Shown: positions 17,400 to 18,159 of the stretch, piece after piece
How positions within the stretch are numbered: the first letter of the stretch is position 1
How the letters are laid out: every line of letters starts with the position of its first letter
From: Opitutus sp.
Lineage (GTDB): Bacteria > Verrucomicrobiota > Verrucomicrobiia > Opitutales > Opitutaceae
Length of the DNA: 64,000 nt
Reading direction: 5' to 3'
Assembly: GCA_013821985.1 (NCBI GenBank)
Contig: PNJQ01000006.1
Location: forward strand, 1-64,000
Notes under the pieces: model-generated
The model's input: only the letters and a program-made list of their open reading frames with translations
Database searches by the model: none
What the model was told of the DNA's origin: nothing
Made by a program: the position numbers and the translations under genes

Positions 17400-17507
17400 C
17401 GAACCGTTCGGCCGAAATCCTCCGCGCTCTCCGCGTCCTCCGCGTTTGATCATCCGTTGGCGTCGTCGTCGTTGCCGTCGTCGTCTAAGTTACCGCAGTC
17501 TTCGGAT

Positions 17508-17802
17508 TGGTGGGCCCACTGGGATTCGAACCCAGAACCAAAGGATTATGCTTACCACTTCGGCTTTCGCCGCCGGCACCGCTGCCGTGCGTGGTCTGGA
17601 CCATGCCTTCGCCCTGTCTTGCGAGTTAGGCGGGTGATTATGGCCTCTACACCTTCCCGCGTTGGGCGCGGGCTTGGCTCGGCGTTGGGTCGCCGCACTG
17701 AAGCGCGGCAGGCCGTTCACCGAAATTACACCTGACTAGCGCAGCGTTTCCCCTGCGCCGACCCGTGAAAGTCCTCTGCTCTAACCGTTGAGCTATAGGC
17801 CC
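17508..17802 (-). tRNA. tRNA-Ile (CAU anticodon) interrupted by a group I intron
   Basis: Exon 1 is 17770-17802 (33 nt: acceptor GGGCCTA, D-arm, 5' anticodon stem GAGGA, then C32 T33). Exon 2 is 17508-17550 (43 nt, from anticodon CAT through T-arm TGGGTTCGAATCCCA and acceptor TGGGCCCA to an encoded CCA). Joined, they make a standard 76-nt tRNA with loop CTCATAA. G1-C72 pairing and the lack of GGG/CCC in the anticodon stem exclude an initiator tRNA. Similarity to ileX-type tRNAs favours lysidine-modified Ile2 over elongator Met, which I cannot fully exclude. Confidence 0.88.
17551..17769 (-). ncRNA. Group I intron (Azoarcus tRNA-Ile intron-like), 219 nt
   Basis: The insertion lies between T33 and C34 of the anticodon loop. 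P1 is visible: exon GACT pairs with internal guide GGTC 6 nt into the intron, giving the required U·G at the 5' splice site. The last intron base is G. The core matches the small Azoarcus intron as I recall it: CAACGCCGAGCCAAGC (P4/J region), GAAGGTGTAGAG, and GAAGGCATGGTCCAGACCAC (P7 region). GGCGAAAGCC forms a capped hairpin near the 3' end. There is no homing endonuclease. Self-splicing is expected from the fold. Confidence 0.88.
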
Positions 17803-18159
17803 CCAATCCAAAGAACGCCGCGACGGTTGCCAGCCCCGGCCCATTTCTCAACCGCAAAGGCTGAAACAAACCCGAGCGAAGGCGCGCCCCGTTCGTCATG
17901 ACGCGAGCAAATTGGACGGGGCACCCGACGCTCTAAACCGCGAAGCCGCTCCGTCTGCGCTTGCGGTTCAGTCCGGGCGACCGTGCGCATCACGCCCGTT
18001 TTCGTTTTCGTTCCGCCTGCGCATCGTTTGTTTTCCGCTGCGCGTCGCCCTGAAATGACGTGGGGGGTTCTGCGGAGAGCGCTGTTAAATCCGGATGAAA
18101 GCCGACGCGACACCCACTTGCAGCTCCGCACCGAGGCGCGGCGGTCCGATGGTTATTCC
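17803..18159. other. 357-bp intergenic region without recognised features
   Basis: This should contain the promoter of the tRNA gene (minus strand) and of the small exported protein (plus strand). No convincing gene, repeat or RNA was recognised. Confidence 0.35.

Follow-up and report, generated by a model that had tools for sequence, protein, structure and literature searches.

A small, very probably self-splicing group I intron in the anticodon loop of tRNA-Ile2(CAU) in an Opitutaceae genome

Group I introns of bacterial tRNA genes are recorded only from cyanobacteria, alphaproteobacteria and betaproteobacteria in the available part of a table published in 2014, and the same source places most bacterial and plastid tRNA introns at position 37/38 (PMC4033280). 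According to the available part of the paper on tRNAscan-SE 2.0, introns in tRNA-Ile2 are known from Acidovorax and Burkholderia, and group I introns in tRNA-fMet from cyanobacteria (PMC8450103). Our literature search found no paper combining Opitutus and group I intron. The intron described here resembles the group IC3 intron of Azoarcus pre-tRNA-Ile(CAU) and its betaproteobacterial kin in being small, free of ORFs, lodged in tRNA-Ile2 and very similar in its core; it differs from that type in its site (33/34 instead of 36/37), in its guide and in belonging to a separate clade. With the tRNA-Leu(UAA) group I introns it shares class and core but not the site (34/35). The tRNA-fMet group I introns interrupt a CAU tRNA at the same U33/C34 joint (six loci here, none with a cyanobacterial title), but they differ in their tRNA, in their length (216–288 nt in these loci) and in having no supported link to the Opitutaceae clade. 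The sites measured in this study (33/34, 34/35 and 36/37) are all unlike the 37/38 named in the available part of the 2014 source (PMC4033280).

The window, meaning the whole 64,000-nt stretch of DNA that was analysed, comprises positions 1–64,000 of contig PNJQ01000006.1 of Opitutus sp. (GCA_013821985.1), a MAG which is 79% complete. An interrupted 76-nt tRNA-Ile2(CAU) gene was found on its minus strand at 17802–17508, and the coordinates proposed in an earlier note on this DNA (17508–17802) proved exact (Table 1). In a BLAST comparison of the stretch with 177 genomes of the order, 131 gave some match, and many of the strongest matches have the exon parts abutting. Bases 9–41 and 261–303 of the query thus lie side by side in intronless relatives (e.g., 77116–77148 and 77149–77188 of G013:C18), which places the joint at CT/CAT, between U33 and C34. 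The earlier note had described this junction, as well as two exons that lose a 219-nt insert to give a 76-nt CAU tRNA, and both were borne out by the empty sites. In ARAGORN the joined exons were recognised as a CAU tRNA. The interrupted gene itself was missed by ARAGORN at its default settings and by the Rfam tRNA family at its threshold. At its length the intron has no room for an endonuclease gene of its own.

Table 1. Features of the interrupted tRNA-Ile2(CAU) gene, in window coordinates
Feature	Position	Strand	Basis or observation
5' exon, tRNA-Ile2(CAU) positions 1-33, 33 nt, ends ...GGACU	17770..17802	-	empty-site comparison
Group I intron, bacterial tRNA (IC3-like) class, 219 nt	17551..17769	-	empty sites and covariance model R2
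3' exon, positions 34-76, 43 nt, CAUAAUCC... with encoded CCA	17508..17550	-	empty-site comparison, ARAGORN
Terminal G of intron	17551	-	same in relatives
Leader box GTTCTTTGG, common to interrupted Ile2 genes	17808..17816	-	TTCTTT count upstream
P1 exon side GACU, U.G pair at 5' splice site	17770..17773	-	
P1 internal guide GGUC	17760..17763	-	P1 kept in 5/6 aligned copies
P2 hairpin, GAAA loop 17750-17747	17739..17758	-	6/8 pairs changed on both sides
P3 5' strand, pairs with 17636-17633	17729..17732	-	invariant in 6 copies
P4 (17723-17718 with 17684-17679), P5, P5a between	17679..17723	-	P5a 3/3 double-sided changes; P4, P5 invariant
P6, P6a	17651..17678	-	P6 invariant; P6a 1/3 pairs changed on both sides
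P7 (17645-17640 with 17604-17599), expected G-binding site, P3' and P8 inside	17599..17645	-	one C-G to U-A change, G126 copy
P9 (ACCAC/GUGGU), P9b with GAAA loop 17568-17565	17554..17595	-	P9 invariant; P9b 1/4 double-sided changes

The isotype was found to be Ile rather than Met. The matches of an intronless homologue in E. coli are annotated as tRNA-Ile in the 5 of 75 records listed, and a separate elongator Met(CAU) gene is present (L016). Pairs C4-G69 and C5-G68, which are TilS determinants, occur in the tRNA-Ile2(CAU), and a gene for TilS, the lysidine synthetase, was identified in all five genomes tested.

The P1 pairing of GACT with GGTC, the U.G pair at the splice site and the terminal G described in the earlier note are all present, together with a group I core of P3–P9 that includes P7. 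Over six aligned copies (window included), 98.1% of the 52 named pairs are standard and 13 pairs have changed on both sides, a number reached in none of 500 shuffles (mean 5.0), and slid structures gave 0–2 such pairs. The helices P3, which is short (4 bp), P4, P5, P6 and P9 say nothing for or against the fold, since they are invariant in these copies. The 5' exon of the L097 copy carries a base change that disrupts the anticodon stem as well as one pair of P1. With a stop-ridden integrase downstream of it, this interrupted gene (L097 / G389:C344) is possibly decaying; loci L085, L086 and L097 probably correspond to G219:C9, G380:C5 and G389:C344, respectively.

Assignment to the bacterial tRNA class of group I introns is supported by this covariation and by a covariance model (R2) built from 12 tRNA introns, none of them from Opitutaceae, with the named helices placed by eye on one row. 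On the 64-kb window R2 scored the intron at 96.0 bits (E = 1.2e-26), with the match ending at 17551, and the next match reached 7.2 bits. Applied to 25 further loci, it gave seven matches, all to interrupted Ile2 genes, and none in the other 18. Part of the R2 score is not independent, as the 12 introns had been picked out by means of a pattern of ~24 fixed core letters which was itself written from the window intron and its Azoarcus kin. The intron matches this model of tRNA introns and is called IC3-like here, its place in subgroup IC3 itself being putative. An alternative model with automatic structure (R1, 19 pairs) scored 77.2 bits on the window and was dropped because its pairs looked wrong.

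The earlier note had stated that the absence of a match to the Rfam group I model would refute its reading, and on this point the outcome went against it: with RF00028 the window stretch stayed without a match up to E = 10, and a search of the whole genome at E ≤ 0.001 was likewise empty. Among four relatives only the G126 copy was reported (23.7 bits, E = 0.074), under the cut-off. On nine other intron loci the model gave 81 bits for L136, 54.5 for L068, 44.9 for L067 and 40.7 for L127, and nothing was listed for L032, L085, L086 and L100; for five tRNA introns outside the family, two were over the cut-off of 50, two were under it and L100 was not listed. RF00028 was therefore set aside as a deciding test, since other tRNA introns score poorly with the same model.

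The transcript would fold so that exon GACU pairs with guide GGUC, and a guanosine bound in P7 would attack after U33. U33 would then attack after the terminal G, joining the exons to give CU/CAUAA. TilS could subsequently convert C34 to lysidine, and the mature tRNA would read AUA as isoleucine. Both this chemistry and its occurrence in the cell are predicted.

It was suggested in the earlier note that splicing is essential if the interrupted gene is the sole Ile2 gene. The window gene is the only Ile2 found in its MAG, and in G126 and G301, each a single contig, no whole Ile2 other than the interrupted gene was found, for which reason splicing should be essential in those two genomes; the suggestion does not extend to G135, G219 and G380, which also have an intronless copy. 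Such additional copies, and the incompleteness of the window MAG, would fit a decaying or unspliced pseudogene beside another Ile2 gene that serves the cell. We regard this as highly improbable, because exons, joint and core are all conserved and because, apart from the two pieces of a split native gene in each, the remaining matches are Met in G126 and Met, Lys and Phe in G301, those in six drafts (G187, G189, G377, G386, G391 and G408) being Met, Lys or Phe. This copy search covered genes of the Ile2(CAU) type.

A match spanning a 33/34 intron was found in at least 31 of 252 family genomes, the window's own included and G403 in part, with two candidates scored per genome. In a draw of 387 genomes of the phylum the exact core pattern occurred in seven, six of Opitutaceae and G466. 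A TTCTTT motif lies within 25 nt upstream of 26 of the 27 distinct interrupted genes delimited by script (the exception being G126) and of 2 of the 35 intronless genes compared, some of these outside Opitutaceae. To judge from their sequences, the 33/34 copies belong to a single lineage, which has a common leader and is distributed patchily over the family. In a 28-intron tree g8 and g113 are the genera that come out as clades; g1 is unresolved, and the copies of g4 are divided by the deepest split (94/95, below the starred level). By eye, leader and trailer of the window gene (17806–17816 and 17501–17507) look complementary, and this is stronger in the copies of genus g8 (GTTCTT/AAGAAC).

A scan of genome contigs with the core pattern returned at least 119 loci, and 122 loci were classified by script, three of which gave no result. 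Among the loci kept for the tree, Ile2 introns at 36/37 account for ten rows, from Betaproteobacteria or unplaced proteobacterial records, those at 33/34 for six rows, all from Opitutaceae or Opitutia (three from the scan and three from genome searches), and fMet-type introns at 33/34 for six loci. Leu(UAA) introns at 34/35 make up 60 of the 104 rows of the intron set. The window intron is in Ile2, at 33/34 and with its own guide, as the earlier note had it, and is not inserted after CAU; the contrast it drew with the Azoarcus site holds for the betaproteobacterial kin. The Azoarcus Ile2 intron itself is at 36/37 with guide GUG.

For the tree set, introns with a score below 66 were omitted except L074, L107, L097 and L084, two (L078 and L179) were removed, and a random draw of 22 represented the 60 Leu introns. 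In the 66-row tree the Opitutaceae 33/34 introns form one starred clade (100/100) on a long branch (1.84), and a different starred group unites the Ile2 introns at 36/37 with some of the Arg(CCU) introns at that site. These separate clades favour the independent insertion put forward in the earlier note, although a tree with one clade for all Ile2 introns was not rejected (AU test, p = 0.179). That result, the alikeness of the core segments and the case of G234, a member of the same family whose Ile2 intron is at 36/37 and whose leader is similar, would also suit an ancestral Ile2 intron common to Betaproteobacteria (Azoarcus type) which shifted from 36/37 to 33/34. We consider such a shift unlikely, given the different starred groups and the different guides, GGUC at 33/34 and GUG at 36/37 (G234, by eye). 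Origin from the introns of initiator tRNA-fMet, which have the same CU/CAUAA joint, is conceivable though not what we expect: the fMet-type loci of the scan are also at 33/34 and one clade with Ile2 33/34 was not rejected (AU test, p = 0.329), but no supported branch joins the two groups, and the Opitutaceae branch is long. Compared with a shared Ile2 ancestor, a separate insertion at 33/34 is likely the better reading of the tree.

Several further loci were recorded during the scan. The 36/37 intron of G234 lies in the same tRNA at the Azoarcus site (G234:C6:3771–4079, L275). The fMet-type 33/34 introns include L107, L136, L151, L156 and L178 (Kaiserbacteria, Omnitrophota, Chloroflexota, Gracilibacteria and Desulforudis records). 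Candidate group I introns were called by script in Thr- or Lys-type tRNAs with anticodons GGU, UGU, CUU and UUU (L071, L117, L132, L116, L121, L171, L127, L103 and L160), and in an Elusimicrobia Leu-type tRNA (L139:2999–3205) the script placed the intron at 33/34 and not at the usual 34/35.

The window gene has a symporter and an acyltransferase gene as neighbours, and neither an integrase nor TniQ was found on its contig. Two genes located 3.3–4.4 kb downstream are related (81 and 56% identity) to genes of G219 that lie 7.0–7.8 kb downstream of the intronless Ile2, by which the window gene seems to be at the native locus; no upstream genes are common to the two loci. In G135, G219 and G380 the interrupted gene lies 57–87 nt after tniQ (Pfam 30.0–34.9 bits, cut-off 27), with a tnsC-like gene before it and, in G135 and G219, tnsAB-like genes, the tns names being given by eye from sequence and the G380 stretch ending short of the tnsAB position. 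The intronless Ile2 of these three genomes has end-like repeats ~40–150 bp upstream. In G212 such tniQ/tns-type genes are on the other side. Of the 32 genomes searched, 25 yielded no TniQ, and the other end of the Tn7-like element was not found within ~2 kb of tnsAB. Tn7-like CAST of types I-B2 and I-D home to tRNA genes, and CyCAST inserts 30–33 nt downstream of the tRNA, according to the available part of the source (PMC10293859). The likeness lies in tniQ and tns genes that adjoin a tRNA; unlike in CyCAST as described there, the end-like repeats here lie on the upstream side of tRNA-Ile2, and tniQ is followed by an interrupted copy of the tRNA.

In Opitutaceae tRNA-Ile2 is an integration hot spot. 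The native intronless gene is in two same-strand pieces in G126 (positions 1–47 and 32–76, 104 kb apart) and in G301 (1–41 and 31–76, 65 kb apart), which share an anticodon-loop core of 16 and 11 bp, respectively, and give normal CAU tRNAs when joined. Their short native upstream flanks (54–130 bp, 74–85% identity) also stand before an intact gene, that of G126 in G180 and G177 and that of G301 in G314, the G126 flank also resembling the stretch before its own interrupted gene; the downstream flanks had no DNA match in the loci compared. A tyrosine recombinase is encoded beside the 3' piece in G126, G301 and G380, its longest ORF beginning 5, 77 and 31 bp, respectively, from that piece. The three recombinases are homologous (27–32% identity), a related one stands beside a piece in G278, and with the Pfam integrase model those of G301 and G380 are over the cut-off of 27.1 and that of G126 is just under it (26.2). 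The drafts G349 and G278 also have 5' and 3' pieces. In the parts examined of 11 intronless genomes, a whole gene was found in eight and only pieces in G205, G211 and G328. One region (G349:C11:22044–55939) holds five tRNA-Ile2 3' pieces and one 5' piece around the interrupted gene. For G126 and G301 we dropped the possibility that one element both split the native gene and carries the interrupted one, as RsgA, TonB plugs, ThuA and LacI (Pfam) lie between the halves.

Integration scars that reach the loop were collected with a pattern that requires CATAAT and so excludes pieces starting further 3' (two in G349 and one each in G278, G404 and G283). Of the 25 rows obtained, the intact L061 and L201 and the interrupted L213, L217, L227 and L228 were removed by reading. 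In 19/19 of the scars kept, CT precedes CATAATCC, and none has an intron end; the shared core therefore crosses the joint which the intron occupies.

Randau and Soll (2008), as cited in the available part of PMC4033280, proposed that split archaeal tRNA genes impede integration. A similar idea, in which a broken tRNA gene blocks mobile elements, may be applied here, with a bacterial ribozyme intron in place of the archaeal split genes of that account. Mobile elements that integrate at and disable tRNA-Ile2 would coexist with, and partly carry, a spare Ile2 whose core CTCATAATCC is broken by the intron in DNA at the crossover loop and restored by splicing in RNA, and which would hence be hidden from the integrase (perhaps also from TniQ). 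The position of the intron, the scars, the split native genes and the mobile company are points in favour of such a protective role, which we nevertheless hold to be somewhat unlikely. The G126 and G301 splits are no evidence by themselves, because the search for splits covered only those genomes that have an interrupted gene. It appears probable that the intron hitch-hikes neutrally, without a protective role, and that its mobile company reflects only the hot spot at tRNA-Ile2. For most interrupted genes, among them that of the window, no adjoining integrase or TniQ was found; Ile2 pieces also occur in a few genomes (G322, G404 and G283) whose only whole Ile2 is the interrupted one; the interrupted gene of G389 is itself closely followed by a stop-ridden integrase; and in G126 and G301 the two halves of the split gene are separated by host-type genes, among them rsgA and TonB receptors. 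Against neutrality stands the crossing of the intron joint by the cores of all the scars kept.

Set against the available part of the 2014 table (PMC4033280), the host belongs to Opitutaceae (Verrucomicrobiota) and the site is a second one in the same tRNA. An essential tRNA gene can look absent, since default ARAGORN and the Rfam models miss the interrupted gene. The placement of introns in the anticodon loop is an old question, which becomes testable in genomes with a loop-split native Ile2 and an interrupted gene as the only whole copy. If the protective role were true, tRNA introns would gain a selectable function.
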